A stretch of DNA of 64,000 nucleotides from Hymenobacter oligotrophus (GTDB taxonomy: Bacteria; Bacteroidota; Bacteroidia; Cytophagales; Hymenobacteraceae). The notes beneath the pieces were generated by a model. The model saw only the letters and a program-made list of their open reading frames with translations. It was not told the origin of the DNA and did no database searches. Positions 1-64,000 of the stretch are shown here, in pieces (position 1 is the first letter of the stretch; the number at the start of each line of letters is the position of its first letter). The translations under genes and the position numbers were made by a program. The DNA lies in contig NZ_CP032317.1 in the NCBI RefSeq assembly GCF_003574965.1, positions 2,170,001-2,234,000 of the forward strand, written 5' to 3'.

Positions 1-680
1 GCGGCAAGCTGGTACGCACGCCGGCCTACGCCGCCTCCGCCAACGGCCAGTTTCGCAACGCGCAAGTGGCAATCGACGACAAAGGGTTTGGCCGAGCCAC
101 GGTGCGCACCGTATCGACGGGGCGGCAGCAAGACGAGCTGGCGCAGATGCTAAGCGCCCTGCCGCCCGACGAGCAACGCAAGCAGGCGTATGCCCGGCTG
201 GGGTTGGCTGCCGTTACCATCGAGCAAAGCAACTGGCAGCGCAACCACCTAGGCGCATTGCCCGCGGTTACGGAGCGCCTCACGCTGGCTTTGCCCAGCT
301 ACGCCTCGCTTACCGGACGGCGCCTGTTTCTGGTGCCTAACTTGCTCAACCGCTTGCCGCCACCGGCCTCGGCAGTAGGGGCACGCCAAACGCCCTTGGT
401 GTTGCACCTGCCCTTTACCGATGCCGATACCGTGCGCTTTACGGTGCCGGCCGGCTACAAGCCCGAGTCGGTGCCGGCGCCGGTGCAGCTGCGCACCGCG
501 TTTGGCAGCTACGACGCGCAGGTGCAGGTGCTTCCCGATGGCAGCATTCAGTACATACGCCGGCTGCAAATGCCCAATGGCCGCTTCGAGGCCGCGCAGT
601 ACGAAGCATACGAAGCCTTCCGCCAGCGCATCAGCAAAGCCGACCGCATGCAGCTGGTGTTGGTGCGGCCCGAATCCTGA
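1..680 (+). CDS. C-terminal part of a DUF3857/transglutaminase-type protein (5' partial)
   Basis: The frame is open from the left edge (first full codon at base 3), so the start lies outside the window. About 225 residues are visible. They hold no catalytic motif and look like the beta-rich C-terminal part (DUF3858-like) of Bacteroidota proteins that join an N-terminal DUF3857 domain, a transglutaminase-like core and this tail, usually exported. The closing pattern, YIRRLQMPNGRF followed about 20 residues later by ADRMQLVLV, is the main support. The role of this family is not established. A strong hairpin terminator follows 26 bases after the stop. The family call is from memory of such tails, so moderate confidence. 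Confidence 0.6.
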   Translation, partial: GKLVRTPAYAASANGQFRNAQVAIDDKGFGRATVRTVSTGRQQDELAQMLSALPPDEQRKQAYARLGLAAVTIEQSNWQRNHLGALPAVTERLTLALPSYASLTGRRLFLVPNLLNRLPPPASAVGARQTPLVLHLPFTDADTVRFTVPAGYKPESVPAPVQLRTAFGSYDAQVQVLPDGSIQYIRRLQMPNGRFEAAQYEAYEAFRQRISKADRMQLVLVRPES

Positions 681-706
681 TACCGACCTACTGCCACACT
701 TTTCTC

Positions 707-741
707 AACAGCCACTCCGCTTAGGGTGGCTGTTGTTTTTT
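707..741 (+). terminator. Rho-independent terminator after the DUF3857-type gene
   Basis: A perfect 9-bp stem (707-715 with 726-734) is followed by GTTTTTT. It lies 26 bases after the stop codon at 680. Confidence 0.8.
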
Positions 742-950
742 GCTCCTACCGGGGTTAGGCAGCAGCCGGCTATCCGTTCGCAACTAATTTGCCGGGCCGG
801 GTGTGACAACCGGTGATGCTTGCCCGCAACTGTGGCCGGGCGGCTGCGTTGTGCCAAGTACCGCCAGCATTTGTTTAAGCTCATGAGTGGCCGCAAAAGC
901 TGTAAATTGATCTTTCAAATCTCGAAGCCGCATTCGAACTACCACTGCCT

Positions 951-3900
951 ATGCGCATATTATTTACCCTGCCCGGTACAGCGTTGCGCGGCGCTGTGCT
1001 GCGTGGCCTGCTTGCCGCGGGCTTAGGCTTGCCGTTTTCGGCCAGCGCCCAACGGGTGCTTTGGGCCGATGCTGATAGCAAGCCCCTGCCTGCCGCTGCC
1101 CGCCGCACTGCCCAAGCCCTAGGTAGGTACCGGATGGTAACGGTGCAACTGGCCAACCTGCGCGCCGCACTGGCCCCGGCGGCCAACAGCAACAATGCGC
1201 GTAGCGCTGGCCCGGTGGTGTCGTTGCCGTTGCCCGATGGCAGCTCGGGCCGGTTCCGGGTTACCGAAACGCAGGTGATGGCGCCCGCACTGGCAGCCCG
1301 CTACCCCGCCATTAAAACGTACTCCGCCCAGGGCATCGACGACCCCACGGCCACCGCCTACCTCGATGTATCGAAGGCCGGGCTGCACGCCATGATTTTG
1401 TCGGCGGGCAATACGGTGTACGTGGACCCTGCCGCCGGCGGGCCGGAACACTTGGTGTTCTACAAGCGCGACATCAACGACGCGGCGTTGGCCCGGCGTG
1501 TGTGCCTTACCCAAACAACCTCGGTGCTTAGCCGGCGGCTTGGTCCGTTGCAAGGCGGCACCGCGGCCCGCAGCAACGGTACCCAGCTGCGCACCTACCG
1601 CCTGGCCATGGCCTGCACGGGCGAGTACGCAGCCAAAAAAGGCGGCACCACCGAGGGCGCGCTGGCCGGCATTGTGGCCTCGGTAAACCGCGTAAGCGGC
1701 GTGTACGAAAAGGAGCTGTCGATTCGGCTGCAGCTGATTGGCAACACCGACCAGCTGATTTTTCTCGACCCCGCCACCGACCCGTACACCAACGAAAGCA
1801 CCGAAGCCACCCTCAACACCAATCAGCAAGTAACCGACCAGCGCATTGGGCCGGCCAATTACGACATCGGCCACGTGTTTACGACCGATGGCGGCGGGCT
1901 GGCGGGCCTGGGCGTGGTGTGCATTGGCAACAACAAGGCACGCGCCACCACCGGCCTGCCCAACCCCATCGGCGACGCATTCGACATCGACTTTGTGGCG
2001 CACGAAATGGGCCACCAGTTTGGCGCCAATCACACCTTTAACAGCAACGAAGCCGGCAACTGCAACCCGGGCACCCGCGCGGGCTCGGCGGCCTACGAGC
2101 CGGGCTCCGGCTCCACCATCATGTCGTACGCGGGCATTTGCCCGCCCCAAAACCTGCAAGCCAACTCCGATGCGTATTTCCACACGTGGAGCTACGACGA
2201 AATCCTGAACCACGTAACCACCCTAGGTGCCTGCGCCAACACTGCTGGCACGGGCAACCGCCCGCCCACGGTGGATGCAGGCGCTAACTACACCATTCCG
2301 AAAGGCACCCCCTTTGAGCTGACCGGCAGCGCCGCCGACGCCGATGGCGACGCCCTCACGTACTGCTGGGAAGAGCTGGACCTAGGGCCCGCCGGCAACC
2401 CCAACCAGCCGCAGGGCAACGCGCCCATCTTCCGCTCGTTTCCGCCCACCACCAATCCTACGCGCGTATTCCCGCGCTTGAGCGCGCTGCTAAGCAACAC
2501 ATCTACCATTGGCGAATTGCTGCCGCAGTACGGCCGTACGCTCACCTTCCGGCTTACCGTGCGCGACAACCGCACGGGCGGGGGCGGCACTAACTATGAT
2601 GCCGTAACGGTACCCGTAGCCGACAACGCCGGACCGTTTGTGGTTACGGCGCCCAACACCAACGTTACGTGGCGCACCACCGTGCCGCAGCAGGTAACCT
2701 GGGATGTGGCCAACACCACGGCGGCACCCGTAAGCGCGGCACAAGTTGATATCCTGCTTTCGGTGGATGGCGGCCTGACCTACCCTTACACGCTGGCTGC
2801 CGGGACCCCCAACGACGGCGCCGAGCAGGTAACCGTGCCTGCCGGCGTGCCGGCCTCGGGGCAAGTACGCCTGAAGGTAAAAGGCACCGGCAACGTCTTC
2901 TTCGACATTTCAAACCAAAACTTCACGCTGCAAACGCCCTCCGGCCCGGGCTTTTTCTTGTCCAGCGACTGCGCTAACAGCACGCAGGCCGTTTGCCCTG
3001 GTGCCTCGGTTAGCTGCAGCCTGAGCGTGGGCCAAGTGCTGGGTTTTGCGGGGCAGGTAGGTCTCTCGGCTACGGGAGTGCCGGCCGGCGTGAGCGTCAG
3101 CTTTGGCAGCACGCAAGTAGCGGCGGGCAGCTCCACTACCCTTGCCATTAGCTCGGCGGCTACTGCTGCAGCGGGCACCTACCCCATTACGGTGGTGGGC
3201 ACCGGCGGCGGCGCTACCGAAACCCAGGTCATCAACCTGATAATCCGCAACTCGGCCAACGTGCCACCCACTTTGCAGCAGCCCGCGCCCAACTCCTTGC
3301 GTGCCTTGCCGCAGCCCACGTTCACGTGGTCGGCCATACCGGGCGCTACGTCCTACGACTTGCAGGTGGCCACCGATGCGGGCTTTAACAACGTGGTAAT
3401 CAGCCAAGCGGGCCTGCAAACCAACACTTACACGGCCGCTACCGCGTTGCAGCAAAACGGCCGCTACTACTGGCGCGTGCGCGGCACGGCCGAGTGCGGC
3501 GTGGGCAACTGGTCGGCGGGCGAGCAGTTTTACGTGGGCCGCCTTGGCTGCACCACCTACGCCCCTACCAACCTGCCGCTTGCCATTGCCAACACCACCA
3601 ACGCCACGGCCATTTCTACCATCACGGTGAGCAGCGCCGATGTTGTATCCGCGGTGCGGGTGCGCGACCTACGCATTACCCACCGCGACCTGGGCGAGCT
3701 GGTACTGGAGCTGCGCGGGCCCGATAACACCCGCGTGCGCCTGGCCTCGTCGCCGTGCCCGGGCAACGCCAACATCAACGCCAGCTTCGACGACGCGGCC
3801 GCCACGGGCATTGCTTGCCCCATCAACACCGGCGGCACGTACCAGCCCGAAAGCCCGCTGGCCGCCTTCCGCGGTTCGGCGGCCAACGGCCCCTGGACGC

Positions 3901-4262: not shown

Positions 4263-4283
4263 CCCCAACGCGCGTACGCCACG

Positions 4284-4326: not shown

Positions 4327-4355
4327 GAGGCATAGCCAGCCCGTGCCCTAGGTGC

Positions 4356-6506
4356 CTACAACGTCAGGCGCAGCTGGGCCTTTACCTCGGAGCGCTGCGG
4401 GCCTTGTATTTCCTCGAGGCCAGAGCCTACCGTTTGCTGCCCGCGGTAGGTGGTGCTGGCGTAACGCACCCAAACCGTAACGTGGCGGCCCATTTTGTAC
4501 TCGGCCAGCGCATACACGCGTGTGCCGCGGCCCGCCAGCGCCGGCACCGAAAAGGCGTAGAGCACGTCTTGCTCGTAAGCATATTGGCGGGTGTCGTAGT
4601 CGTCGGTATCGAACAGGGCGTAGCGGGCCGAGAGGCGCAGGGTGCGCAGTGGCTGCACTGCCACATCCTGCGCCAACAAGTAGCCCGTGCGCCGGGGCCC
4701 TAGGTGCTGGCGGTGGTGGGTGCCCTGCAGGCGCGTGCGCAGGCTGAGGATGGGCGTGGGGTTGGTGTCGTAGAACAGCAGCAGCGAGCGGCGCAGCGTG
4801 GGCACGGGCTCGGGCATTGGCCTTACATCGTCGGCGTCGTAGGCTTTTTGGCGGGTGCGCACCTGGGCGTAGAGCTGGCTGGTTTTGGTAGGCGAAAACG
4901 CCACGCGCACCAGCCAATCGTACCCGCGCGATGGGGCACTAACCTGGTAGCGCAACCACGGAAACCGAAACTGATCGTAGTAGGCCGACAACTCCCAGCG
5001 CGCTACCGGGCGCAGCTTCAGCCCTAGGTACAAGCCGCTCTCGTTGATGTTGCGGGTGTTTTCGCCGAAGGCGTTGCCGTAGAGCGTATGAAAGTTGCGC
5101 GCGTAATGGCGGTACAGCACGGCGGCATCCACATCGGAGCCCAGGCTGGCGAGCAAACCGTTTACGGTGCCCAGGCCACCGCTGCTGCTGCGGGCCGTTT
5201 CGCCAAACAGGCTAAGGTTGCGCCACCCGTAGCTGTAATGCGCCGATACGGCCAGGTTTTGCCGCCCGCCGAACTCGTACCGGTTGTACGGCTCGGGGCG
5301 GCGCTGCAGGGGTTGCCCAAAGGTGGTGCCCACGGCCGTAAGCCCTAGGCTGAGCTGGCTACCGGCAGGCGCAAAGCTGACGTTGCCGCCCACCACGCCC
5401 TCGCGCAGGCTGCGGCGGTTGCGGAGCTCCGAGGCCGTGCGATGGAAACCCGTCAGCAGCAATCCCGAGGCAAAATCCGTGGTTTCTTCCTCCAGCGAAT
5501 CGGCCAAGGCGCTACGCAAAGTGGCGTCTACACGCTTCAGCGAGGCAAAACCGGTGAGGCGCCAGCCCGGCGCCGGCGCTACCGTGGCTGCCGCTCCGCG
5601 GAAAAACGAGCTTTCGAGCACCGAGGTGTAGGGCCTGATGCCCAGGTTGGAGCGGCGCAGCGTGGTAATGGTTTCGGCGCCTTTGCCCACCTGCAGCCCC
5701 GATGACAGCAACAAGCCTTGCCCGAACTGCAGCTGGTAATCGCCCACAATCACGGCCTTCAACTGGCCGCGCTCAAACAGCCCTAGGTGCGCCGAGTAGT
5801 AATCGAAGCCGTAGCGGCGGGTGCTGGGGCTCCAGGCAAACTGCTCGCCGGCGTCTTTCTCGGCGGCCAGGCCAACACTGAAATCGCGCGCGTGGCTAGT
5901 CCGGAAGCGCACGAGCAGCTTGTCGGGCGAGCCTAGGTAACGGCTGGAGGCGGTGCCGTTGCTGTTGAGGGTGGGCGCGGTGTACCCTTTGCGCTCCTCC
6001 AGCACCCGCTCGTAGCGCAGAAACAAAGCGTTGTTGTCTTCTTGCCGAATGCGCTGCCACAGGGGGCCGCGTACGGCGTTGCCGCTCGGCTCGCCCACCG
6101 TTGCGAAGGGCGCCAGGCGGTAAATGGTGCGCAGGTCCAGCTCGTCGATGCTTTGCAGCTCGTAGAGGCTCAGCAGGGCGCCGTTTCGCTCGCGGTGCTC
6201 GAGCAAGGCCGTAATCTGCGGCTGCGACAGTAGCAGTAGGCCGGTTAGCTCTTCGCGCGTGGCCGTGTTTAGGTTAAGCGGGGTTTGCAGGTACTGCAGC
6301 AGCGTTTCGTACAGGTCCTCGTAGGGTACTTGGTCGCTCTGCGGCTCGGCAAACAGCTCCTGCATCAGCCGGTCGAGGTCGGGGCGCTGGCGCGGGTAAT
6401 CCTGCACTTGAGCCCGGGCAGGCAGCGCACCTACGGCGCTCAGCAATGCCGCCAATAGCCACGCCCCTGCCCTGTTCTGGCGTACCCATTTACCTAGGCG
6501 CCTCAT
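4356..6506 (-). CDS. Helix-hairpin-helix protein with predicted outer-membrane barrel
   Basis: A 716-residue exported protein. The start at 6506 is chosen because it opens a clear signal peptide (hydrophobic AWLLAALLSAVGALPARAQ) and overlaps the stop of the upstream gene as ATGA. Residues near 60-130 carry ComEA-like helix-hairpin-helix repeats (LNLNTATREELTGLLLL, then YELQSIDELD). The rest is rich in alternating aromatic and polar residues, as in a beta-barrel. Bacteroidota carry many exported HhH-plus-barrel proteins of this size with no known role. A DNA-linked function is possible from the HhH domain but unproven. It is translationally coupled to the barrel-like protein before it. Confidence 0.75.
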   Translation of the reverse strand: MRRLGKWVRQNRAGAWLLAALLSAVGALPARAQVQDYPRQRPDLDRLMQELFAEPQSDQVPYEDLYETLLQYLQTPLNLNTATREELTGLLLLSQPQITALLEHRERNGALLSLYELQSIDELDLRTIYRLAPFATVGEPSGNAVRGPLWQRIRQEDNNALFLRYERVLEERKGYTAPTLNSNGTASSRYLGSPDKLLVRFRTSHARDFSVGLAAEKDAGEQFAWSPSTRRYGFDYYSAHLGLFERGQLKAVIVGDYQLQFGQGLLLSSGLQVGKGAETITTLRRSNLGIRPYTSVLESSFFRGAAATVAPAPGWRLTGFASLKRVDATLRSALADSLEEETTDFASGLLLTGFHRTASELRNRRSLREGVVGGNVSFAPAGSQLSLGLTAVGTTFGQPLQRRPEPYNRYEFGGRQNLAVSAHYSYGWRNLSLFGETARSSSGGLGTVNGLLASLGSDVDAAVLYRHYARNFHTLYGNAFGENTRNINESGLYLGLKLRPVARWELSAYYDQFRFPWLRYQVSAPSRGYDWLVRVAFSPTKTSQLYAQVRTRQKAYDADDVRPMPEPVPTLRRSLLLFYDTNPTPILSLRTRLQGTHHRQHLGPRRTGYLLAQDVAVQPLRTLRLSARYALFDTDDYDTRQYAYEQDVLYAFSVPALAGRGTRVYALAEYKMGRHVTVWVRYASTTYRGQQTVGSGLEEIQGPQRSEVKAQLRLTL

Positions 6507-7460: not shown

Positions 7461-7484
7461 CTTACGCAGAAAACCACCTAGGGC

Positions 7485-10127: not shown

Positions 10128-10170
10128 CACCTAGGGCTGCATGCCCAGGCCTGTTTCTTGGCCCTAGGTG
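10128..10170. repeat. Paired CCTAGG palindromes in inverted arrangement
   Basis: CACCTAGGGC at 10128-10137 and GCCCTAGGTG at 10161-10170 form a perfect 10-bp inverted repeat with a 23-base loop, between yidD and the next lipoprotein gene. There is no T run, so it is not a typical terminator. Confidence 0.6.
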
Positions 10171-11146: not shown

Positions 11147-11354
11147 GCTGTCAGTTATCAGATTTTGATTTTTCACCCAGGGCCGCGCGCCCGTGGCTGA
11201 GCTACCGCCGCTTGCCGTGCTCCAATTGGCCCTAGGTGCCCTGTGCGCGGCCGGCACCTAGGGCCTTGGCGTTGGCAAGAGCCGCCGATTACTTCTAGCC
11301 AACCGCTAATAGCTGCTCCCTAACTGCTGACAACTGACCGCTAATAACTAACAT
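11147..11354. repeat. Heptad-repeat spacer between lipoprotein gene and aldolase gene
   Basis: The 265-base gap holds 7-base repeats in register. The left end has GCTGTCA, GTTATCA and GATTTTG (11147-11167). The right end has seven consecutive heptads beginning CT (11306-11354), including CTGACAA, CTGACCG and CTAATAA, roughly the reverse complement of the left type. Between them lies a 13-bp inverted repeat (11228-11240 with 11253-11265) with CCTAGG in both arms. No gene is seen. Confidence 0.7.
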
Positions 11355-13560: not shown

Positions 13561-13783
13561 GGGGCGCGTTGCACGCGCCCGCCACAAAGAACGACTATCC
13601 GGGGAAAAATTACAGGCCCGAGCCGCTAAACGCCCCGGGCCTGCGGGTAAAAGTAGCAGACGTTGCGCGGGTAGCCCTAGGTGCCTTGGGGCGCGGGGCC
13701 AGTGGGCAGCCTACGGGGTGCTGCTGCGCGCTGTTGTTTTCGCGCCCGAGTACACCAAGCGGGCGCGTGCAACGTGCCCCTAC
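13558..13783. repeat. 25-bp inverted repeat flanking the lgt-nadE spacer, overlapping the nadE stop
   Basis: Arms 13558-13582 (beginning GTAGGGGCGCGTTGCACGCG) and 13759-13783 match in 24 of 25 positions. The right arm contains the nadE stop codon (complement at 13780-13782). Inside lie a GC-rich hairpin (CAGGCCCG...CGGGCCTG) and one CCTAGG. A second member of the family is at 40569-40718. Confidence 0.85.
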
Positions 13784-15759: not shown

Positions 15760-15840
15760 AGGCTTGAAGCAGGAATGGTGGAAACGTGCTGCAAGTAACT
15801 CCAAATGGCCGAGTCGGGTTGTGCAAACCGCTACACTCGT

Positions 15841-16308
15841 TGTCATTGCGAGGACGAAGGACATTCCGCGCATCAAGCGGCGTCAATCGGTCCTGAACTG
15901 GGCAGAGCCATTCCCTTAGCACTAAGCGAAATCGCCCTAGAACAGTAGCGCGGGCTTTGGCTACGCCGACCTGCGGTTGTAGTCCGCGTCCTTAGATAGT
16001 GATTTCCGTTTCCGGACCTAGGGATACAGCCCGCGTTTGCTAGAACGGCTGGCGTCAGGGCAGTTCCGCGCGGAACCACTCGTCCATGCCAACGCGGGCT
16101 GAACCGCAGGAAGGAGTAGCCAAGCCCGCGCTACACGTGCTGCCCGCAACGATTAAGGTTGCTATCCGGGGACGCGGACTACAACCGCAGGTCGGCGTAG
16201 CCAAAGCCCGCGCTACATTTCGCTTGCTGCTAGGTGAACAAGGGTGTCCTGCCCAGGACCGATTGACGCCGCTTGATGCGCAGAATGTCGTGCCTCCTCG
16301 CAATGACA
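15841..16308. repeat. Composite island of nested inverted repeats (MITE/REP-like)
   Basis: This covers nearly all of the 567-base gap between nadE and rnc, which holds no gene. The outer arms 15841-15905 and 16249-16308 pair almost fully apart from a 5-base gap and a few mismatches. The inner arms 15945-15991 and 16170-16216 are a perfect 47-bp inverted repeat (beginning GTAGCGCGGGCTTTGG). A central pair is 16028-16037 with 16091-16100. The core 16052-16072 recurs in inverse orientation at 25599-25619. One CCTAGG lies at about 16018. No transposase gene is present. Confidence 0.88.
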
Positions 16309-16326
16309 GCGGGCGCGAGCGGTTTG

Positions 16327-17079
16327 CTACATACCTAGGGCATCCAACGCACGCTCGGCGGCTTGTTGCTCGGCTTGCTTTTTCGAGAGGCCCATGCCCG
16401 TAGCCACGGCCTCGTCGTCAATCAGCACCGTGGCCGAAAACTCCATTACGCCGCCGGTGCGCTGCTCACCGTTCAGCTCGTAGCGCACGGCTTTGCCGTG
16501 GCGCTGGGCCCACTCAATCAGCTTACTCTTGAAATTGGCCGTGGTGCTCACCAGCGCCTTCACATCCACGAACGGACGAATCAGGCGCTTCAGCACAAAC
16601 TGTCGGGCGGCTTCGTAGCCGTGGTCGAGGTAAACGGCGCCCACCAAGGCCTCCAGGGCGTTGCCGTTTACGGAACGCGAGCGGGCAGAGCGGCTCTGGC
16701 CGGCATCGAGCTGCACCAGCGCATCGAGACCAATTTTGAGGGCCAGTTGGTTCATGCTTTCGCGGTTGACGATGCGCGAGCGTACCTCCGTTAGGAAGCC
16801 TTCGGGCTCGTACGGAAACTTGCGAAACAGGAATTCGGCCACCACTGCGCCCAGCACGGCATCGCCCAAAAACTCCAGCCGCTCGTTCGAGAGGTGCCGG
16901 GTTTGGCCGGGTTGCTGCCGCACCATGGAAGCGTGCGTAAATGCCAGCCGGTACAAACGCACGTTGCCCGGCGCACGGCCCGTTACGGAAGCAATGGCTT
17001 GCCGAAACTGACGGTCGTGGCCGAGCAAACGGCGAAAGAAACCGAACAGCGGGAGCGTACGGCCGCTGCGCTGTACCAT
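16327..17079 (-). CDS. rnc: Ribonuclease III
   Basis: A 250-residue double-stranded-RNA endonuclease that matures rRNA precursors and cuts structured RNAs. The catalytic domain carries the signature NERLEFLGDAVLGAVV with the acidic metal ligands, and further on ALEALVGAVYLDHGYE. The C-terminal double-stranded-RNA-binding domain runs from about residue 180 (FKSKLIEWAQRHGKAVRYEL) to GLSKKQAEQQAAERALDAL. It is third in the acpP-fabF-rnc operon common in Bacteroidota, separated from fabF by a 107-base heptad-repeat spacer. The start ATG at 17079 gives a normal length with a short basic leader. Confidence 0.96.
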   Translation of the reverse strand: MVQRSGRTLPLFGFFRRLLGHDRQFRQAIASVTGRAPGNVRLYRLAFTHASMVRQQPGQTRHLSNERLEFLGDAVLGAVVAEFLFRKFPYEPEGFLTEVRSRIVNRESMNQLALKIGLDALVQLDAGQSRSARSRSVNGNALEALVGAVYLDHGYEAARQFVLKRLIRPFVDVKALVSTTANFKSKLIEWAQRHGKAVRYELNGEQRTGGVMEFSATVLIDDEAVATGMGLSKKQAEQQAAERALDALGM

Positions 17080-21079: not shown

Positions 21080-21158
21080 GCTTTCAAGGGCTGCCGGGCA
21101 GTTGTCTCCCGGTTGGCACCTAGGGCACACGGGCCAGCTCGGCCGTAGCCCAAAGCGT

Positions 21159-23576: not shown

Positions 23577-23825
23577 AGTTAGCGTTTAGGTTGTCAGGCA
23601 GTTATACGCTCTGTGCATTCGGCTGTTCGAAACTTTGCGCGCACTGTTGTGCTTCTACTCAAGTACATACAAAGATTTGCTGACCAATTGGTTACCTCCC
23701 CGGTCACCCAGCGCGGCCATACCACCTAGGGCCGAAGCACGCAGAACGCCGCAATTAGTATGCATGCCTAAAACTTGCGTACCTTCCAGAAACCCGCATT
23801 TCTTCATCCTTAACTGCTTGCCGCG

Positions 23826-25538: not shown

Positions 25539-25556
25539 GCGCGTAGGCGGCACGGC

Positions 25557-25658
25557 TGTAGCGCGGACTTCAGTCCGCGTTTGCCAGAACAATGGTTGCG
25601 CGCGGAACTGCCCTGACGCTTGTCGTTCACGCAAACGCGGACTGAAGTCTGCGCTACA
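25557..25658. repeat. 28-bp inverted repeat related to the 16-kb island
   Basis: Arms 25557-25584 and 25631-25658 (TGTAGCGCGGACTTCAGTCC...) match in 27 of 28 positions. The loop contains 25599-25619, which is the exact reverse complement of 16052-16072 (GCGCGGAACTGCCCTGACGC plus one base). It therefore belongs to the same dispersed family. It lies between rsmG and the sigma-factor terminator. Confidence 0.85.
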
Positions 25659-25663
25659 AACAA

Positions 25664-25692
25664 CGAAGCCCCGCCTAGGTGGCGGGGCTTCG
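25664..25692 (-). terminator. Terminator of the sigma-factor gene, CCTAGG in the hairpin
   Basis: A perfect 12-bp stem (25664-25675 with 25681-25692) with a 5-base loop, 22 bases past the stop at 25714. CCTAGG spans the stem-loop junction. The T run on the minus strand is weak. Confidence 0.7.
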
Positions 25693-27710: not shown

Positions 27711-28841
27711 ATGACTTTCGACCTCGTCGCTCACGATCCGCAAACCAAAGCCCGCGCCGGTGTGCTCACCACCGACCACGGCACCATCCAGACGCCCATT
27801 TTTATGCCCGTGGGCACGGCGGGCTCGGTAAAAGCCGTGCACCAGCGCGAAGTCAAGGAGGACATCAACGCCCAAATTATTCTGGGCAATACCTACCACC
27901 TGTACCTGCGCCCCGGCCTCGATACGCTGCGGAAAGCCGGCGGCCTGCACAAGTTCAACGGCTGGGACAGGCCCATCCTGACCGACTCGGGCGGCTACCA
28001 GGTGTACTCGCTCAGCGAAACGCGCAAGATCAAAGAGGAAGGCGTGAAGTTCCGCTCGCACATCGACGGCTCGCACCACTTGTTCACGCCCGAGGGCGTA
28101 ATGGACATTCAGCGCGTTATCGGGGCCGATATCATTATGGCGTTCGACGAATGCACGCCCTGGCCCTGCGAGTACGACTACGCCCGCAAGTCGATGGACA
28201 TGACGCACCGCTGGCTGAAGCGCTGCATCGAGCGTATCGATAGCACCGAACCGCTCTACGGCTACGAGCAGCAGCTTTTTCCGATTGTGCAGGGCAGCAC
28301 TTTCCGGGATTTGCGCAAGCAATCGGCCGAGTTTATTGCCGCGCAAGGCCGCGCCGGCAACGCCATTGGCGGCCTGAGCGTGGGCGAACCGGCCGAGCTG
28401 ATGTACGAAATGACGGAGCTCTGCTGCGACATTTTGCCCGCCGACAAGCCGCGCTACCTGATGGGCGTGGGCACGCCGGCCAACATCCTGGAGAACATTG
28501 CCCTAGGTGTGGATATGTTCGACTGCGTGCTGCCCACCCGCAACGCCCGCAACGGCATGCTGTTCACCACGCAGGGCATCATCAACATCAAGAACAAGAA
28601 GTGGGAGCAGGACTTCTCCCCCATCGACGAAGAACTCGGTGGCTACGCCAGCACGTTCTACTCCAAATCGTACGTGCGCCATTTGTTTCACGCCAGCGAG
28701 TACCTGGCAGGGATGGTGTCCTCGGTGCACAACCTCACCTTCTATCTGTGGCTGGTGCGCAACGCCCGCGAGCAAATCCTGGCCGGCACCTTCCGCGAGT
28801 GGAAGGAGAAAATGGTGAAGCAGCTGATGGTAAGGCTATGA
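27711..28841 (+). CDS. tgt: tRNA-guanine (queuine) transglycosylase, lacking the cysteine zinc site
   Basis: A 376-residue enzyme that exchanges guanine 34 for the queuosine precursor preQ1 in tRNAs with GUN anticodons. The substrate site (LTDSGGYQVYSL), GGLSVGEPAELM and the nucleophile region MFDCVLPTRNARNG are intact. The C-terminal zinc site of the E. coli enzyme (C-x-C-x2-C...H) is absent: the aligned stretch reads EELGGYASTFYSKSYVRHLFH, with only the His kept. This looks like a Bacteroidota trait rather than damage, because the fold around it is well conserved. Start MTFDLVAHD at 27711. The stop TGA runs straight into a heptad-repeat spacer. Confidence 0.95.
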   Translation: MTFDLVAHDPQTKARAGVLTTDHGTIQTPIFMPVGTAGSVKAVHQREVKEDINAQIILGNTYHLYLRPGLDTLRKAGGLHKFNGWDRPILTDSGGYQVYSLSETRKIKEEGVKFRSHIDGSHHLFTPEGVMDIQRVIGADIIMAFDECTPWPCEYDYARKSMDMTHRWLKRCIERIDSTEPLYGYEQQLFPIVQGSTFRDLRKQSAEFIAAQGRAGNAIGGLSVGEPAELMYEMTELCCDILPADKPRYLMGVGTPANILENIALGVDMFDCVLPTRNARNGMLFTTQGIINIKNKKWEQDFSPIDEELGGYASTFYSKSYVRHLFHASEYLAGMVSSVHNLTFYLWLVRNAREQILAGTFREWKEKMVKQLMVRL

Positions 28842-33355: not shown

Positions 33356-34504
33356 ATGCGTAGCGACGAATACGACCGACTCTACCTTTCGCCGCCACAC
33401 CTGGGCCGCCACGAGCTGAATTACCTACACAAGGCCATCGAGGACAATTGGGTAGCCCCCGTTGGTCCGAACATCGACGGCTTCGAGCGCGACATTTGCC
33501 AGTATACCGGTGCGCAGCATTGCGTAGCCCTGAACTCGGGCACGGCGGCAATTCACCTAGGGCTTCAGTTGCTCGGCGTAGGCCCCGGCGACGAAGTGCT
33601 AGTACCCTCCTTTACGTTTGTGGCCACGGCGAACCCCGTGCGCTACCTGGGCGCCGAGCCCGTTTTCATCGACAGCGAAACCGACACCTGGAATATATGC
33701 CCCGGCTTGCTGCGCGAGGCTCTAACCGAACGCAGTCGCAGAGGCCGCCTGCCCAAAGCCATTGTGCTAGTGCACCTCTACGGCATGCCGGCCCGCCTGC
33801 CCGAGTTGCTGGCCATTGCGGCCGAATTTGGGGTGCCAGTGCTCGAAGATGCAGCCGAAGCCCTAGGTTCGACGTTTCAGAAACAGCCCCTGGGCACCTT
33901 CGGAGCAGTAGGCATTTTCTCCTTCAACGGCAACAAAATTATTACCACCAGCGGCGGCGGCGCCTTGGTTACCAACAAAAGCGAGTGGGCTCAGCAGGCG
34001 CGTTGGCTCGCCACCCAAGCCCGCGACGCCGCTCCGCATTACCAGCACTCAGCCGTAGGCTACAACTACCGCCTCAGCAACCTGCTGGCCGGCATCGGCC
34101 GCGGACAGATGGGGCTAATCGAAGACCGGGTAAAGCGTCGGCGTGAGATTTATGCGCAATACTGCGAGCTGCTAAAGCCATTGCCAGCCGTTCAGGTTGG
34201 GCCGGCCGAATTGCCCAATGCCCGCGCCAACCGCTGGCTTACCACCATATTGCTGCGCCCCGAGCATACCAACCTGAGTCCCGAAGAAGTACGCCAGCAC
34301 CTCGAAACCCACAACATCGAAGCGCGCCCGCTTTGGAAACCCCTGCACCTGCAGCCGCTATTTGCCGGCTGCGCAACCTACGGCGGCAGCGTTTGCGAAG
34401 ACCTCTTCAACCGTGGCCTTTGCCTCCCATCCGGCTCTGCTATGACGGACGCCCACGTGCGCCGGGTGATAAGTGCCTTAAAAGAAATACTACCTGCTGG
34501 ATAG
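33356..34504 (+). CDS. DegT/DnrJ/EryC1/StrS sugar aminotransferase (PglE-like)
   Basis: A 382-residue PLP enzyme that aminates a keto-sugar nucleotide. Family motifs: LNSGTAAIHLGLQLLG, DEVLVPSFTFVATANPV, LVHLYGMPA, VLEDAAEALGS, and the PLP lysine in SFNGNKIITTSGGGAL, followed by GYNYRLSNLLAGIGRGQM. Members with this opening (YLSPPHLGRHELNYLHKAIEDNW) act on UDP-4-keto-6-deoxy-GlcNAc. Together with the two genes before it, it outlines a bacillosamine-type pathway. The PglF-type dehydratase is not in this window. Start MRSDEYDRLYLS at 33356. Confidence 0.9.
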   Translation: MRSDEYDRLYLSPPHLGRHELNYLHKAIEDNWVAPVGPNIDGFERDICQYTGAQHCVALNSGTAAIHLGLQLLGVGPGDEVLVPSFTFVATANPVRYLGAEPVFIDSETDTWNICPGLLREALTERSRRGRLPKAIVLVHLYGMPARLPELLAIAAEFGVPVLEDAAEALGSTFQKQPLGTFGAVGIFSFNGNKIITTSGGGALVTNKSEWAQQARWLATQARDAAPHYQHSAVGYNYRLSNLLAGIGRGQMGLIEDRVKRRREIYAQYCELLKPLPAVQVGPAELPNARANRWLTTILLRPEHTNLSPEEVRQHLETHNIEARPLWKPLHLQPLFAGCATYGGSVCEDLFNRGLCLPSGSAMTDAHVRRVISALKEILPAG

Positions 34505-42775: not shown

Positions 42776-43007
42776 GCAGCTATGAAAGGCAGCCGGCACC
42801 TAGGGCCAGCCGATAGAGCTTCGTACGAAATCGAACGCGCAAAGAAACGGGGAAATGCGCAGTCTTCACCTCGTCGTTTTACGTATTAAGCGCACCCCTA
42901 CCACGCCAAAGCAACTTTTCAGCCGTATGAGCAAAGACAATCTGCGTCCGATTCGCTTCCTTGGCGAAGTAGTTCGCTTGCTTCTCCACTCCTCAACCTC
43001 TACTTCT

Positions 43008-48843: not shown

Positions 48844-49116
48844 CTACCGTTTCACCTCGAAGCGCGCATAGCCTTGCACCACGCCGGTTTGCACCTCTAC
48901 TTTATCGACGCGGGCGGCGGGCGGCCCTTGGCGGCACCACTGCTCTAGGGCACCTAGGGCGTCGGCGGGGCCTTCGGCTTCGATGGTTACGGTGCCGTCG
49001 GGCTCGTTGCGGGCGTAGCCATGCAGGCCCAGCCGGCGTGCCTCGTGCTGCGACGATTGCCGGAAAAACACGCCCTGCACGCGGCCGTGGATGCGGAAAG
49101 TGCGGTGTTCGATCAT
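48844..49116 (-). CDS. acyP: Acylphosphatase
   Basis: A 90-residue enzyme that hydrolyses carboxyl-phosphate bonds in acyl phosphates. Both signatures are present: GRVQGVFFRQSSQ with the catalytic Arg, and GYARNEPDGTVTIEAEG with the catalytic Asn. Start MIEHRTFRIHG at 49116. A TATTTTTG box is 30 bases upstream. It converges on the T9SS protein gene, with 5 bases between the stops. Confidence 0.95.
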   Translation of the reverse strand: MIEHRTFRIHGRVQGVFFRQSSQHEARRLGLHGYARNEPDGTVTIEAEGPADALGALEQWCRQGPPAARVDKVEVQTGVVQGYARFEVKR

Positions 49117-49207: not shown

Positions 49208-50341
49208 ATGCGCTACGCCCTTACCAATGCCGTTTTGCACACCGGTCACGCCGAGCTGCTCCACCACGCCGTCGTTATCAGCGGCAGCAACATTGAGGCG
49301 GTGGTGCCTGCGGCCACGTTGCCAGCCGATTTGCGTACCTACGACCTAGGCGGACTGCACGTAGCGCCGGGCCTGATTGATTTGCAAGTGTATGGCACGC
49401 ACGGGGCGCTGTTTTCGACGCAGCCAACCACCGCGGTGCTGGCCCGCATGCAGGAGGCGTTTTGGGAGCAAGGCACCACGCACTTTCTGGCCACCATGCC
49501 CACCAACTCGCCGGCCCTCATGCGTGAGGCCGTAGTGGCTGGCCACGCGTTTCGGGCCGAACACCCCAACGGCGGTTTGCTGGGCGTGCACCTCGAGGGG
49601 CCCTGCATCAGCCACGAGAAAAAGGGCGCCCACCAAGCCGCGTTTATTCGGGCACCCGATGCAACCGAGCTGCGCGAGTGGCTGCATGCGGGCCCGGGCA
49701 CATTGCGCATGCTTACCATGGCGCCCGAAGCCGCCACGCCCGAGGCTTTGGCTTTGCTGCGCGAAGCCGGCGTGGTGCTATCGGCGGGCCATACCAACGC
49801 CACGTACGCGCAGGCTACGGCCGCTTTCGGCCAGGGCTTTGCGGCGGCCACGCACTTGTTCAACGCCATGTCGCAGCTTACGGGGCGCGAGCCGGGCGTG
49901 GTGGGCGCCGTGTACGACTGCGTTACTGCCTGCGCCAGCATCATTGCCGATGGCGTGCACTGCGATTTTGCGGCGGTGCGCATCAGCCACAAACTCATGG
50001 GCGAGCGGCTGTTTCTGATTACCGATGCCGTGGCCGAAAGCCCCGACGGCGCGTACCAGTTCCGCCACGCCGGCGACCGGTTCGTGGATCGGCAGGGCAC
50101 GCTGGCGGGTTCGGCGCTTACCATGCTGCAAGCCGTGCGCAACTGCGTGCACCACGTGGGCATTCCGCTGGCCGAAAGCTTGCGCATGGCCTCCCTCTAC
50201 CCTGCCCGCGTGCTGGGCCTGCAACACCACCTAGGGCTGCTAGCGCCCGGCTACCAAGCCAGCCTGTGCCTGTTCGACGACCAGCTGGAGCCGCGCGGTG
50301 CGGTGGTGGCCGGCGCGTTGCGTTTGCGCAACCCTGCCTAG
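49208..50341 (+). CDS. nagA: N-acetylglucosamine-6-phosphate deacetylase
   Basis: A 377-residue amidohydrolase that removes acetate from GlcNAc-6-phosphate in amino-sugar catabolism and wall recycling. Motifs: VAPGLIDLQVYGTHG (HG of the usual metal site HxH appears as QVYGTHG), LGVHLEGPCIS with the metal-binding Glu, SAGHTNATYAQ and ATHLFNAMS with the two His ligands, and LITDAVAESPDG with the catalytic Asp. Start MRYALTNAVLHTG at 49208. No nagB is adjacent. It ends 13 bases from the convergent methyltransferase gene. Confidence 0.93.
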   Translation: MRYALTNAVLHTGHAELLHHAVVISGSNIEAVVPAATLPADLRTYDLGGLHVAPGLIDLQVYGTHGALFSTQPTTAVLARMQEAFWEQGTTHFLATMPTNSPALMREAVVAGHAFRAEHPNGGLLGVHLEGPCISHEKKGAHQAAFIRAPDATELREWLHAGPGTLRMLTMAPEAATPEALALLREAGVVLSAGHTNATYAQATAAFGQGFAAATHLFNAMSQLTGREPGVVGAVYDCVTACASIIADGVHCDFAAVRISHKLMGERLFLITDAVAESPDGAYQFRHAGDRFVDRQGTLAGSALTMLQAVRNCVHHVGIPLAESLRMASLYPARVLGLQHHLGLLAPGYQASLCLFDDQLEPRGAVVAGALRLRNPA

Positions 50342-56061: not shown

Positions 56062-56097
56062 GCCCTAGGTTGCTGCGCGGTTTGCAGCACCTAGGGC
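56062..56097. repeat. Hairpin with CCTAGG in both arms
   Basis: GCCCTAGGTTGCTGC (56062-56076) and GCAGCACCTAGGGC (56084-56097) pair with one bulged base, followed by ATTTTCT. It sits 7 bases before the stop of the minus-strand M28 gene and may terminate the convergent plus-strand cluster. Confidence 0.65.
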
Positions 56098-59703: not shown

Positions 59704-59887
59704 GGCCGGAAGGTACAACCAGGCTGCCAAGTAGCTACTTCGTCCCGCGCTGCTGGCCTGCCCTGAGGCGGCCAACTGAACTATACCAACAGCGTTTGCA
59801 CGTTCGCAAATTTTGTAACGCAACTCATTACCAATTGGCCTTTATCGGGTGTTACTTATAAGCACCATCCGCCAAACCGCCCGAGCT

Positions 59888-60127
59888 ATGCGTTGCAACC
59901 TAGGCATGCCCGACCGCCTTATTCGCCTGCTGTTTGCCCTGATGCTGGGCGCCGAGTTGCTGCTCGAAGGGCAAAGCCCCGATATGCTGGCCCTGCTGGC
60001 CGCGCTGTCGGCGGGCTTGCTGGTTACGGGCCTGAGCGGATTCAGCCCGCTGTACGCCCTGCTGGGCCTTTCTACGCGCGATTTGCTGCGCAACAAACCC
60101 CCGAAAGCGCGGCGTTTCAGCGCGTAG
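59888..60127 (+). CDS. DUF2892 inner-membrane protein (YgaP-type membrane module)
   Basis: A 79-residue protein with the family opening MRCNLGMPDRLIRLLFALMLG and two hydrophobic helices (about 10-27 and 35-62, the latter with GLLVTGLSGFSPLYALLGLST). The short Cys/Gly-rich start is typical. DUF2892 is often linked to rhodanese or sulfur proteins, but no such gene is adjacent. It is divergent from the LysR gene, which may control it. Start at 59888 is set by the conserved MRCN. Confidence 0.85.
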   Translation: MRCNLGMPDRLIRLLFALMLGAELLLEGQSPDMLALLAALSAGLLVTGLSGFSPLYALLGLSTRDLLRNKPPKARRFSA

Positions 60128-60175
60128 CCCTAGGTGGCCTGCGATTGTTTGCACCCAAGCAGCCAAAGGCAGCGG

Positions 60176-60994: not shown

Positions 60995-61116
60995 GCCGGA
61001 ATGACTCGGCACCCCTCCTAGCGCTGCACCAAACAGTTGGCTACAAGCAAATTATTTTACGAATCTTTTCGTAGTTATACTACCTCCAAATTTTCCATCG
61101 GAGCATTCCCAGGCGG

Positions 61117-61638
61117 CTATAATTTTGCCGGCACGCTGGCCTTCACGCTGTCGAGCTTGCTAGCCCAGCGTTGCTTTTCTTCGCTGTTGAGGATGGTAAA
61201 CGCCTTTTGGGTTTTGGCGTCGTTGGGGGCCAGGGCCTGGGCCGTGCGCAAGTAGTGCTTGGCCGAGTCGAGGCGCTGTGTCCAGATGTAGTTGATGCCG
61301 ATGTTGCGCATTACGGCCGCCTTGTCGTAGCCGTGGCGCAGGGCCGTCCGGAAGCTGGTGCTCGATTTGGCGTATTCCTTTTGGTTGGCTTCGGCCACGC
61401 CAATTTTGTAGTGCAGTTCGGCGTCGGCGGGGTTTTCCTGCGCCAGCTTGTACAGCTTGGGCAAGGCCTCGGCGTAGGCGTGCTTCTCGAACAACGCGTT
61501 GGCCTCTTGCCGGGCCGGTGTAGCAGCGGCCGGGTTTGCCGACGCGGCGGTTTGCTTAGGAGCTTGGTTGCACGAAGCCGTGGCCAGGGCCGCGGCACCA
61601 GCTAGCAACAAGCTGGTGCGAAAAGCGAAAAAGCGCAT
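61117..61638 (-). CDS. TPR-type lipoprotein
   Basis: A 173-residue protein with lipobox TASC after a hydrophobic leader (FAFRTSLLLAGAAALATASC), then an Ala/Gln-rich spacer. About three TPR-like helix pairs follow (QEANALFEKHAYAEALPKLYKLAQENPADAE, HYKIGVAEANQKEYAKSSTSFRTALRHG, LDSAKHYLRTAQALAPND). TPR lipoproteins scaffold envelope complexes; no partner is visible here. Start at 61638. Confidence 0.8.
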   Translation of the reverse strand: MRFFAFRTSLLLAGAAALATASCNQAPKQTAASANPAAATPARQEANALFEKHAYAEALPKLYKLAQENPADAELHYKIGVAEANQKEYAKSSTSFRTALRHGYDKAAVMRNIGINYIWTQRLDSAKHYLRTAQALAPNDAKTQKAFTILNSEEKQRWASKLDSVKASVPAKL

Positions 61639-61781
61639 TATGGTTTGGTTGTGGTGGATGGAGCAAGGCGGGCAGCTGCTTTGGCAATGCCCAGAGCGGC
61701 CGCCCGCCTGGCAAATTAGCACGCGCCGCCGGTAAACCACGCGCCTGCGTGCATTCTGTGGCCGGGGCGGGCCTGCCCAAG

Positions 61782-62465
61782 CTAGCCCAAAGCAAACCTA
61801 CCTAGGCACTGCACTACCCGTGCCCGGTGGTACCAGTCGTTGCACACCAGCTCGGCGTGCTGCACCTGCATCGTGCCGAAAGCGTGCTGTCGGTATTGCT
61901 GCAGCAACTCCACAAACCGCAGCGGCTCGCGCAACGGCGCCCGAAACCGCGCTACCGTGCTGTGGGCGGTTTGCAGCACGTAGCGTTTGTCGATGGTTTG
62001 CGGCAAGGCCGAAGCCCGGAAGGCAGTGCGTAGGTTGCCCCTCAACTCCTGCAGTGCTGCGGACCTAGGGAAGCCTTGCACCATTACCGTAGCGGCCGAG
62101 GCAGTGATGCCGGCGAAATTAATGGTAAATGGCTGGGCTACTGGCAGCACGCTCGCCAGCAGTTGCTTGTATGCGCTTGGGTTTATTTGGCTTAGAGCAA
62201 AGCCCTCGTAGCAGGAAATGAGCGTCAGCAGCGTGACGTGCATATCCGAGGGCGGATAATAGTATTGCTCGGGTTCGAGGCGGCGCAGTTGTTCCACGAA
62301 CTCGGCCATGCGGTGCTTTACTTCCGCTGTAGGGCGAATGACCAAGGTGAGACCTAGGCGATGGTCGTTGGGGTCGTCGAGCAGTGGGTCTGTGGCCAGG
62401 CTGTTGCTTGCTAACTTAGGCAAAGCTTCCTGCCACATGGCAGCGTAATGATCGGCTAAGGTCAT
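61782..62465 (-). CDS. 2H phosphoesterase (2'-5' RNA ligase-like) protein
   Basis: A 227-residue protein with the two HxS/T motifs of the 2H superfamily: MHVTLLTLISCYEG and TAHSTVARFRAP. The spacing and alternating strands fit the family. Members act on 2'-5' RNA linkages or cyclic nucleotide ends, and this one's substrate is unknown. Start MTLADHYAAMWQEA at 62465. Single gene. Confidence 0.75.
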   Translation of the reverse strand: MTLADHYAAMWQEALPKLASNSLATDPLLDDPNDHRLGLTLVIRPTAEVKHRMAEFVEQLRRLEPEQYYYPPSDMHVTLLTLISCYEGFALSQINPSAYKQLLASVLPVAQPFTINFAGITASAATVMVQGFPRSAALQELRGNLRTAFRASALPQTIDKRYVLQTAHSTVARFRAPLREPLRFVELLQQYRQHAFGTMQVQHAELVCNDWYHRARVVQCLGRFALG

Positions 62466-62586
62466 GAATAGCCAGGAGGTATACCAAGGAAAAGTCAGAC
62501 ATAGCTGTTAGAGCTAACGGCATAAGTTTAGCTCGGCGTGGCTCACCGCAAAACTCAATAGCAATGCCCCGCAGATATATTTTCCT

Positions 62587-63300
62587 TTAGTAGTCCACCT
62601 CTTTGTCACAGGCCAAGCAATCGAAGCGGATCGACTCAAGTTTACCTTCGCTTAGTTCGTAAATGTGCCTTGGATTGTCTATGCAGGGCTCAAGAACAAC
62701 GAATTTGATCTTCTGCTGTAGCCCTGCATCTATGGCTGTCAGGAACGTTGAGTAGAATTGATTAGCCGACATTCCGACCTTGACCTTGTTAGTTAATGCC
62801 ACAGTGCTGTCTCTCAATTCGCCTTTAATTATGTAGGAGCCCCAGTAGCTATCAGGCGAATCATCTTTGGCGAAGAAGAGCAACAGCCTATCTTTTCCTT
62901 TTATCAAACTGTGATACGTAGAGGCCTCACCATCTCTTAGGCGGGTTACCTGCTTATTGACTTTGAATCCTTTTAGCAGCGATTTACCGAGCATGGATTC
63001 ATCCTTGATGTTTCCAAAAGGGTAATAAACAAACTCAGCACAGGTTACCAGGAACAAGGTATCAGCCGAAACCCAAGCGGAATCATTGAACTCGAAAGAC
63101 TTTTTGGGTTTAAGCCATCCGCTGCTCAGCTTATAAGCGCCTGCTGTGTCCGTAAGCATAGTCGATTCCGCTGTTCGCTTGCCGAACGTGTGTTTACCGG
63201 TATCACCCTGCTGGCCTTGCTTGCCGCAGGAGGCCATAAACAAGGCCGCAAAGACACCATACCATTTGATGAAGCCCTGTGGATTATCAATCACGATCAT
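62587..63300 (-). CDS. Lower-GC lipoprotein, unknown
   Basis: A 237-residue protein with a lipobox FMASC (after IKWYGVFAALFMASC). The mature part has no recognised domain: GWLKPKKSFEFNDSAWVSADTLFLV, then DRLLLFFAKDDSPDSYWGSYI, and LESIRFDCLACDKEVDY at the C-terminus with a CxxC. The base composition is visibly lower in GC than neighbouring genes (many A/T-ending codons, no CCTAGG). It is likely foreign or rapidly evolving. The ATG at 63300 is preferred to a GTG five codons earlier. Confidence 0.65.
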   Translation of the reverse strand: MIVIDNPQGFIKWYGVFAALFMASCGKQGQQGDTGKHTFGKRTAESTMLTDTAGAYKLSSGWLKPKKSFEFNDSAWVSADTLFLVTCAEFVYYPFGNIKDESMLGKSLLKGFKVNKQVTRLRDGEASTYHSLIKGKDRLLLFFAKDDSPDSYWGSYIIKGELRDSTVALTNKVKVGMSANQFYSTFLTAIDAGLQQKIKFVVLEPCIDNPRHIYELSEGKLESIRFDCLACDKEVDY

Positions 63301-63555
63301 ACAATATTTGAGCACGGCGCATTAGTTAAGCTTTGCAAATAGTAGCCTGACTGACGCTTAGGCAAATTTGTCCGAGCTCTTAATTTTTACGCACAGCCTT
63401 ACTTGCTCAACCGGCAAGTGCCAAGCTGCCTCGCGGTTCTTATTGCTTAAAAGCTGCATTAGTTAGCTATTGACCTTTTAGCAGCTATAATACCCCTTAT
63501 CCATTAGCGTTTTTCTATACCTTTCGCCCGCCGCTATCCTCCCCCTATCCTTCCG
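63301..63555. other. AT-richer intergenic region
   Basis: About 255 bases between two divergent genes, AT-richer than the rest. TACCTTTC at 63518-63525 differs in one base from the TAnnTTTG consensus, 31 bases before the next ATG. No gene or repeat is seen. Confidence 0.5.
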
Positions 63556-64000
63556 ATGACTACCCCCAAACTGCTTCGCCTGCCGCTGCTGGTGCTGCTG
63601 GCTTTGCTATGCGCGTGCTCCAAACCCGGCGAGGATGCCAACACAGCAACTGCTGCCGACGGCGAGGAAATCGACCCGTACGAAAACCTGATTTTCAGCT
63701 TCGAGGAGCCGGTAGCCTCGGAGGCCCAGCTGAACCGCTGGGACACCACGCAGGTAGTGCGCTTTGAGCCGGCGGTGCGGGGCAAGTTTAAGTGGGCGTC
63801 GGAGCGGGAGCTGGTGTTTTCGCCGGCCGAGCCGTTCCGGCCGAGCACCGCGTTTCGGGCCGAGCTGCGGCCGCAGGCGCTGCCCAGCGGCAAGCAGCAG
63901 AAACCACCTAGGCTGAGCCGCACGCAGTTTCATACGCCCTACTTACAGATGAGCGAGCCGCAGGTGTTCTGGACGGCCTCGGCGCAAAGCAGCGAGCCGG
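63556..64000 (+). CDS. Alpha-2-macroglobulin family lipoprotein, N-terminal part (3' partial)
   Basis: The frame is open to the right edge, with 148 residues visible. The signal peptide (LLRLPLLVLLALLCAC) ends in a lipobox. The domain that follows (NLIFSFEEPVASEAQLNRWD, FKWASERELVFSPAEPFRPSTAFRAELR) is the Ig-like start seen in Bacteroidota alpha-2-macroglobulin-type proteins (about 1900 residues), which trap proteases in the periplasm. Only this start is in view, so the identity rests on these N-terminal residues. Confidence 0.7.
   Translation, partial: MTTPKLLRLPLLVLLALLCACSKPGEDANTATAADGEEIDPYENLIFSFEEPVASEAQLNRWDTTQVVRFEPAVRGKFKWASERELVFSPAEPFRPSTAFRAELRPQALPSGKQQKPPRLSRTQFHTPYLQMSEPQVFWTASAQSSEP

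Follow-up and report, generated by a model that had tools for sequence, protein, structure and literature searches.

The CCTAGG hexamer in the window and the source genome

The 64,000-nucleotide stretch of DNA analyzed here (the window) spans positions 2,170,001 to 2,234,000 of contig NZ_CP032317.1 from Hymenobacter oligotrophus and carries the hexamer CCTAGG throughout its length, both within and between genes. An earlier note on this DNA had estimated about 97 copies against about 21 expected. The exact count is 97, with first bases from 248 to 63907, and the expectation from base composition is 21.1 at a GC content of 61.1%. Markov models of orders 1, 2, and 3 predict 12.5, 12.2, and 20.8 copies, so the excess stands for orders 0–3 (12–21 expected) and, as the note had argued, is not a GC effect. 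Only order 4 approaches the observed count, with 79.9, because its model already includes the counts of CCTAG and CTAGG. CTAG occurs 142 times in the window, and 45 of these copies lie outside CCTAGG, matching the first estimate; the remaining contexts are rare (GCTAGC 11, CCTAGC 7, others 0–4). The excess is not restricted to the window. The source genome (G000; 4,188,814 bases, 99.97% complete) contains 5,678 CCTAGG, or 1,355 per Mb and roughly one per 700 bp, compared with 67 copies of the reversed control GGATCC.

The sites in the window, with the perfect copies of the longer consensus CACCTAGGGC described below, are as follows.

248 to 63912, unstranded: CCTAGG hexamers, 97 across the whole window, with 52 ACCTAGG on the plus strand, 39 on the minus strand, and 21 sites between genes; first bases at 248, 1118, 2222, 2381, 4175, 4347 ... 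62353, 63907
4345 to 4354, minus strand: perfect CACCTAGGGC, noncoding
4697 to 4706, minus strand: perfect CACCTAGGGC
5780 to 5789, minus strand: perfect CACCTAGGGC
7475 to 7484, plus strand: perfect CACCTAGGGC
10128 to 10137, plus strand: perfect CACCTAGGGC, noncoding
10161 to 10170, minus strand: perfect CACCTAGGGC
11229 to 11238, minus strand: perfect CACCTAGGGC, noncoding
11255 to 11264, plus strand: perfect CACCTAGGGC, noncoding
13674 to 13683, minus strand: perfect CACCTAGGGC, noncoding
21117 to 21126, plus strand: perfect CACCTAGGGC, noncoding
23723 to 23732, plus strand: perfect CACCTAGGGC, noncoding
28500 to 28509, minus strand: perfect CACCTAGGGC
33554 to 33563, plus strand: perfect CACCTAGGGC
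42797 to 42806, plus strand: perfect CACCTAGGGC
48951 to 48960, plus strand: perfect CACCTAGGGC
50228 to 50237, plus strand: perfect CACCTAGGGC
56088 to 56097, plus strand: perfect CACCTAGGGC, noncoding
60127 to 60136, minus strand: perfect CACCTAGGGC, noncoding

The palindrome CCTAGG had been taken as the over-used unit, but its flanks prove to be one-sided. An A before the hexamer or a T after it is found on exactly one side at 91 of the 97 window sites, with 6 showing neither and 0 both. Across 484 kb of G000 (678 sites), 606 sites have a single flank, 14 have both, and 58 have neither; ACCTAGGT is not favored. Noncoding sites are similarly oriented (106/116); position –2 is C in 52% of them, +6 is G in 74% and C in 24%, and +7 is C in 61%. 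The over-used unit is thus the asymmetric ACCTAGG(G/C), with the noncoding consensus CACCTAGGGC, rather than the bare palindrome. Within 1,582 kb of chromosome from genomes that carry the motif, ACCTAGG occurs 2,007 times, ACCTAGGG 1,046 times, and CACCTAGGGC 377 times, the last against 5.4 expected, and enrichment falls with mismatches from 70-fold to 5.0-fold and 1.55-fold. The share of CTA among xNC-CTN-GGx contexts also varies with the flanks, from 65/68 and 137/147 in the two best well-filled classes, through 84/124 (A..C), 51/71 (G..T), and 14/67 (G..C), to 2/19 and 0/7 in the worst.

Distribution among genomes and along the chromosome

We compared eight genomes of the genus set. CCTAGG is abundant in three of them, the carriers G000, G005 (5,325 copies), and G007 (Solirubrum puertoriconensis MC1A; 6,212), and scarce in five sisters: Hymenobacter edaphi (G001; 123), Hymenobacter sp. 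15J16-1T3B (G002; 249), H. busanensis (G003; 163), H. jeollabukensis (G004; 201), and Hymenobacter sp. CRA2 (G006; 220). The next highest counts are 807 among 58 relatives (G048) and 734 among 395 genomes drawn from the phylum (G236). A reading in which only three species carry the motif was overturned by six carriers in a second Hymenobacteraceae genus (g5), which were missing from the earlier genome draws. With both strands summed over 204 family genomes, ACCTAGGG occurs 2,980, 3,106, and 2,808 times in the three carriers and 8–20 times in the five sisters. Among the 120 g5 genomes, the counts are 2,746 (G529), 2,643 (G514), 988 (G465), 979 (G547), 896 (G459), and 337 (G498), followed by a continuum from 90 downward; the other four family genera (76 genomes) reach at most 46. 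The motif is therefore not a property of Bacteroidota but is limited to a few Hymenobacteraceae species among the genomes searched.

The flank dialect of the second-genus carriers seems to differ from that of G000. In a tiny sample from contig starts (14 sites in 16 kb of G514 and G529), 10 of the 14 CCTAGG have neither flank, compared with 58/678 in G000, and most of these ten have C before the hexamer. Thirteen of 80 Hymenobacter loci of 2 kb contain any CCTAGG, and three are rich in it, making H. polaris (5 copies), H. setariae (3), and Hymenobacter sp. BT559 (3) candidate named carriers. No comparable alternate motif appeared among the top 8- and 10-mers of the LOW clade (80–238 kb per group).

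Other words also differ among the stretches sampled from these genomes. Relative to the sisters, the three carriers are poor in GTSAC-type words (CGTGAC 0.107 versus 0.569/kb, CGTCAC 0.128 versus 0.653/kb), a pattern that looks like restriction-site avoidance in the carrier clade. CTCGAG is scarce in the sisters and not in the carriers (0.044 versus 0.304/kb). CGATCG is strongly avoided in all eight genus genomes (0–5 versus 32–86 expected), as are TCGCGA and GGATCC in most of them. The window also contains two stretches (15823–16327 and about 25547–25666) of a repeat family with inverted arms, resembling repetitive extragenic palindromic (REP) elements or miniature inverted-repeat transposable elements. 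G000, G005, and G007 each hold numerous copies of this family, which lie in either orientation, and the sister species have matches to it as well; its first copy in the window (15823–16327) includes ACCTAGGG.

Sites are denser between genes than within them. With genes called as greedy longest open reading frames, 244 kb of G000 hold 3.3 sites/kb of noncoding and 1.2 sites/kb of coding DNA, in keeping with the reported presence in both; a coding repeat is not favored, as copies occur between genes too. Spacer types are similar (convergent 3.47, divergent 2.88, and co-directional 3.26 per kb), and without a marked preference among them a terminator or promoter element is not favored. Strand bias is not strong in three G000 regions totaling 884 kb, compared without placing the origin or terminus (128/136, 127/128, and 327/279; p = 0.67, 1.0, and 0.056). 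This result bears on a Chi-like signal, or one resembling FtsK-orienting polar sequences (KOPS), that would be oriented for a recombination exonuclease or a DNA translocase. The motif is asymmetric, over-represented, and chromosomal, as such a signal would be, but Chi and KOPS are strongly orientation-biased, and we consider this explanation very unlikely.

Spacing is more even than chance would give. Short gaps are under-represented relative to random CCNNGG positions (gaps below 400 bp, 0.388 versus 0.446; z = –5.6). Among count-matched hexamers, itself included, CCTAGG ranks first for even spacing in G000 (51 hexamers) and G007 (25), and also in G005 (95) except at the 50-bp threshold, where it ranks second. 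Density along the chromosome is mostly 20–38 per 20 kb, with one full bin of 10, and three G000 chromosome regions have 1.40–1.45 sites/kb.

Plasmid-like contigs, by contrast, are nearly empty, with 19 sites in a summed 264.9 kb (0.07/kb) at a GC content of 0.60–0.63. In G000 these are C2 (2 in 42 kb), C3 (0 in 31.6 kb), and C4 (1 in 11 kb); in G005, C2 (10 in 80 of 158 kb) and C3 (5 in 80 of 101 kb); and in G007, C5 (1 in 20 of 259 kb). Judging from their size and content, these small contigs appear to be plasmids. Two other small G007 contigs have 25 sites in 20 kb (C2, chromosome-like) and 2 in 12.5 kb (C4). Where neither G005 nor G007 offers a counterpart, coding DNA of G000 holds 22 sites in 30.9 kb (0.71/kb), compared with 438 in 371.7 kb (1.18/kb) for coding DNA aligned in both; the unmatched DNA is also poorer in GC, however (0.51 versus 0.61), and coding DNA aligned to just one of the two has 1.37/kb. 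A 12.8-kb stretch outside the window (G000:C1:2114867-2127676) has no counterpart in G005 or G007 and just 2 CCTAGG; it is a probable recent island.

Placement of this kind could reflect a chromosome-organizing, segregation, or repair protein that binds the motif, with selection keeping about one site per 700 bp for whole-chromosome coverage. The evenest spacing in all three carriers (apart from the single G005 threshold), the fairly uniform density, the near confinement to the chromosome, and the lack of a marked preference among spacer types would all suit such a protein. The sister species lack the motif, however, whereas greater age would be expected of an essential architectural factor, and no reader protein was found. 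We regard this explanation as possible, with the odds leaning against it.

Gains and losses among the carriers

Identity is about 88% among the carriers and 78–81% between them and the five sisters. Site positions were compared in BLAST segments from one chromosome region. Starting from 218 G000 sites in 144 kb, 123 of the 184 alignable sites are also CCTAGG in G005 and 59 of 87 in G007, compared with 1/58, 1/53, 1/43, 1/60, and 4/113 in the five sisters. One-off neighbors are little depleted in carriers relative to sisters (CCCAGG 0.94 versus 1.22/kb, CCGAGG 1.18 versus 1.25/kb).

Losses inside the motif are strongly reduced. Where xNC-CTA-GGx is present in all three genomes, the first C of the motif, a synonymous wobble position, is lost in 7/601 cases, compared, within the same windows, with 27/219 for the wobble C of the next codon upstream (Fisher p = 8e-11) and with 32/200, 21/225, and 24/171 at three further neighboring wobbles. 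In xCC codons, the C is lost in 0/228 cases in the motif versus 61/430 before CTG, and first-C loss is roughly eightfold lower in the motif (7/616) than in CTG contexts (238/2,620). A Gly wobble T that completes the motif is lost in 10/295 cases; when A completes the motif from the other side, the Gly wobble C changed in 14/107 and G in 8/80 cases (22/187 together), and T was lost in 4/4. One awkward observation is that the first C is lost in 0/60 cases before conserved CTA codons that do not precede GG. This objection to a motif effect falls because those windows are slow throughout (3/96 one codon out), whereas motif windows turn over normally (27/219).

Because synonymous positions within the motif show about tenfold fewer losses than adjacent ones, either selection or a biased transmission with the same effect maintains the motif. 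If it is all selection, the roughly eightfold reduction relative to CTG contexts corresponds to a scaled strength of about 3.3, in agreement with a 20- to 45-fold excess. Two-against-one parsimony scores parallel gains as losses, a bias that would make the protection look weaker.

Gains are in excess. Under a null aware of codon position and lineage, CCTAGG gains by transitions number 48 versus 9.3 expected, by transversions 7 versus 4.8, and by double changes 13 versus 2.0 (mixed), 3 versus 0.9 (double transitions), and 1 versus 0.7 (double transversions). Losses number 215 versus 356 for transitions (0.60) and 73 versus 177 for transversions (0.41). Twenty control hexamers run alongside gave gain ratios of 0.4–1.5 (transitions), 0.1–1.1 (transversions), and 0.4–2.1 (mixed doubles) and loss ratios of 0.63–1.86 and 0.43–2.74; CCTAGG lies beyond every one of these ranges, for losses barely so. 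A likelihood fit to Leu wobbles likewise gives, relative to other contexts, G to A at 10.8 times and A to G at 0.55 times the control rate, with transversion gain at 1.6 and transversion loss at 0.28 times.

Center gains by transition are raised in the carriers, with CC[C]AGG to T seen in 48/227 cases (11/71, 4/62, and 33/94 by lineage) versus 47/1,513 in six control contexts and 21/628 in three further ones; in the LOW triple it is 1/113 versus 6/485 in four control contexts. A mutation hotspot without function, turning the third C of CCCAGG into T (through deamination of a modified C, for instance), would account for this rate, which is elevated in each of the three carrier lineages but not in the LOW clade. 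A test that demanded conserved flanks, in which C to T at CCCAGG was raised and transversions were not, had suggested such a hotspot as the whole story; coupled flank changes, seen once that demand was relaxed, and the reduced losses undid that reading. A hotspot leaves unexplained the tenfold fewer losses at the first-C wobble, the fewer in-motif Gly wobble losses, the double changes of center and flank within one lineage, and the near-empty plasmid-like contigs of equal GC content. The strongly reduced losses inside the motif reject a mutation hotspot acting alone and do not support a biased mismatch or mutation process as the sole cause (the earlier note had listed a biased mismatch process among possible causes); we consider a pure hotspot highly improbable.

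Candidate readers and comparison with known systems

Our best explanation is that ACCTAGG(G/C) serves the chromosome as a sequence for recognizing self throughout the genome; that it is a maintained recognition sequence read by some protein we hold with a probability of roughly 85%. As the motif is actively kept, something in the cell probably reads it, and a sequence-specific protein is the probable reader. The DNA-binding or chromosome-organizing protein proposed in the earlier note remains a candidate.

A methyltransferase had been proposed as one shared cause. We found no DNA methyltransferase common to the three carriers among four Pfam families (PF00145, PF01555, PF02384, and PF02086), with PF07669 and smaller families not searched. 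PF00145 is present in G005 only, PF01555 in G005 and G007, PF02384 in G000 and G005, and PF02086 in none. Among these families, G007 has one PF01555 protein, on a 12.5-kb contig, and the sole methyltransferase of G000 is an N6_Mtase (PF02384) in a 738-amino acid open frame at G000:C1:2991097-2991909. The stretch around this gene is poor in CCTAGG (1 in 3.8 kb).

These searches bear on the mechanism set out for highly iterated palindromes (HIPs; Elhai 2015), in which marking of the motif by a methyltransferase leads methyl-directed mismatch repair to favor the strands that carry it. Density class and motif type are the same here, and the strongest gains are transitions into the motif, including the CC[C]AGG to T changes and the 10.8-fold G to A rate. 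Such a process should affect plasmids as well, however, and flank and transversion losses are protected too. Together with the lack of a shared methyltransferase from the four families, this makes a HIP-type cause rather improbable.

Our first choice of mechanism is an uptake-type drive, with chromosome organization or repair a close second. During natural transformation or other homologous DNA exchange, motif-bearing DNA would be preferentially taken in or recombined, and motif copies would repeatedly replace motif-less ones until sites peppered the chromosome; plasmids and islands, which would not recombine with such homologues, would stay clean. The in-motif protection, excess gains, chromosome-versus-plasmid contrast, lack of clear orientation, and even spacing support this drive, as do the mismatch gradient, the patchy two-genus distribution with graded counts, the dialect hint, and the presence of the inner-membrane channel ComEC (PF03772) in 8/8 genus genomes. 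The self-DNA preference of the bacteroidote Riemerella columbina (PMC7965970) was counted in its favor as well. We nonetheless hold the uptake-type drive only tentatively.

Several observations weigh against self-recognition, and against uptake in particular. Transversion gains are weak (7 versus 4.8 expected), though above all 20 control hexamers, and for this reason there may be a transition-specific contribution to the gains. Whole-hexamer conservation is unremarkable, with a loss fraction of 0.397 against a mean of 0.498 (24th lowest of 178 hexamers) and 21 gains versus 29 losses. G005 shows apparent T to C losses in 59/643 cases, versus 19/598 and 15/592 in the other lineages; these may be gains common to G000 and G007. 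The plasmids may simply be recent arrivals. PF00437, the type II secretion/type IV pilus ATPase family, was found in 0/8 genus genomes by a search that matched 14/14 controls, which argues strongly against a classical pilus-borne uptake receptor, although the search did not extend to pilins. ComEC occurs in carriers and non-carriers alike, and these species are not known to have been reported as naturally competent; a narrow literature search returned no paper on the matter.

A bolder reading would be self-DNA recognition in Bacteroidota that works without a type IV pilus. In this scenario, a transferable reader gene would have been gained separately in two Hymenobacteraceae genera, each time writing the CCTAGG core over the chromosome with its own flank dialect and so setting up a barrier between chromosome and plasmid and between species. 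We consider this reading speculative and less likely than not.

To our knowledge, highly iterated motifs of such density occur mainly in cyanobacteria (HIP1) and, as uptake sequences, in Neisseriaceae and Pasteurellaceae, and we are aware of no settled reason for the existence of HIP1. The motif described here separates species within one genus, with sisters as controls, and recurs at graded levels in a second genus, so comparing gene presence could point to its cause and knock-outs could test it. Should the motif label self DNA for uptake, no earlier system of this kind would be on record from Bacteroidota within the open-licence literature searched, and it would offer a practical handle for transforming these bacteria. 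We found no report of CCTAGG as such a motif in that literature; the available portions of PMC1939737 have it solely as the AvrII/BlnI/XmaJI restriction site. Restriction leads to avoidance, the opposite sign to the large excess seen here. A palindrome described in Caldithrix (PMC5317091) is an unrelated 18-bp REP-like repeat. For R. columbina, which prefers its own DNA, the candidate uptake sequences listed in the available part of PMC7965970 are A-rich k-mers only. Like Chi, the motif is short, over-represented, and chromosomal, but it lacks the strong orientation of Chi in the three G000 regions.

HIPs are described as GC-rich palindromes tied to methyltransferases, at about 500–2,500 copies per Mb and with a motif GC content of at least 75% in all but one case (PMC4390886); the main text of that article mentions neither CCTAGG nor "Bacteroid". 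The parallel with HIP1 (GCGATCGC) drawn in the earlier note holds in part. As with HIP1 and the alternate HIPs of cyanobacteria, the copies run into the thousands, with about one per kb, the density of 1,355 per Mb lies in the HIP range, gain and loss between relatives are fast, and the motif is scarce in foreign DNA, as HIP1 is reported to be in genes of foreign origin (PMC3025956). Unlike HIPs, the unit is asymmetric about its palindromic core, its GC content is below 75% (67% for CCTAGG, 70% for CACCTAGGGC), no methyltransferase of the four families is common to the carriers, and the phylum is different.

The DNA uptake sequences (DUS) of Neisseriaceae and uptake signal sequences (USS) of Pasteurellaceae (PMC3630211, PMC1939737) differ in that the systems described so far depend on type IV pili, and the ATPase family of such pili was not found in the eight genus genomes; the motif here also has a palindromic core. 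Uptake sequences are described as unoriented, in noncoding excess, and, citing Karlin, evenly spaced (PMC1939737). The motif described here is likewise an asymmetric sequence of about 10 bp with thousands of copies, a noncoding excess, no strong orientation bias, even spacing, species specificity, and a gradual drop in enrichment with mismatches. It is also rare in foreign DNA (0.07/kb on plasmid-like contigs, 2 sites in the 12.8-kb island candidate), and the ComEC channel of the known systems is present, though not carrier-specific, in all eight genomes.

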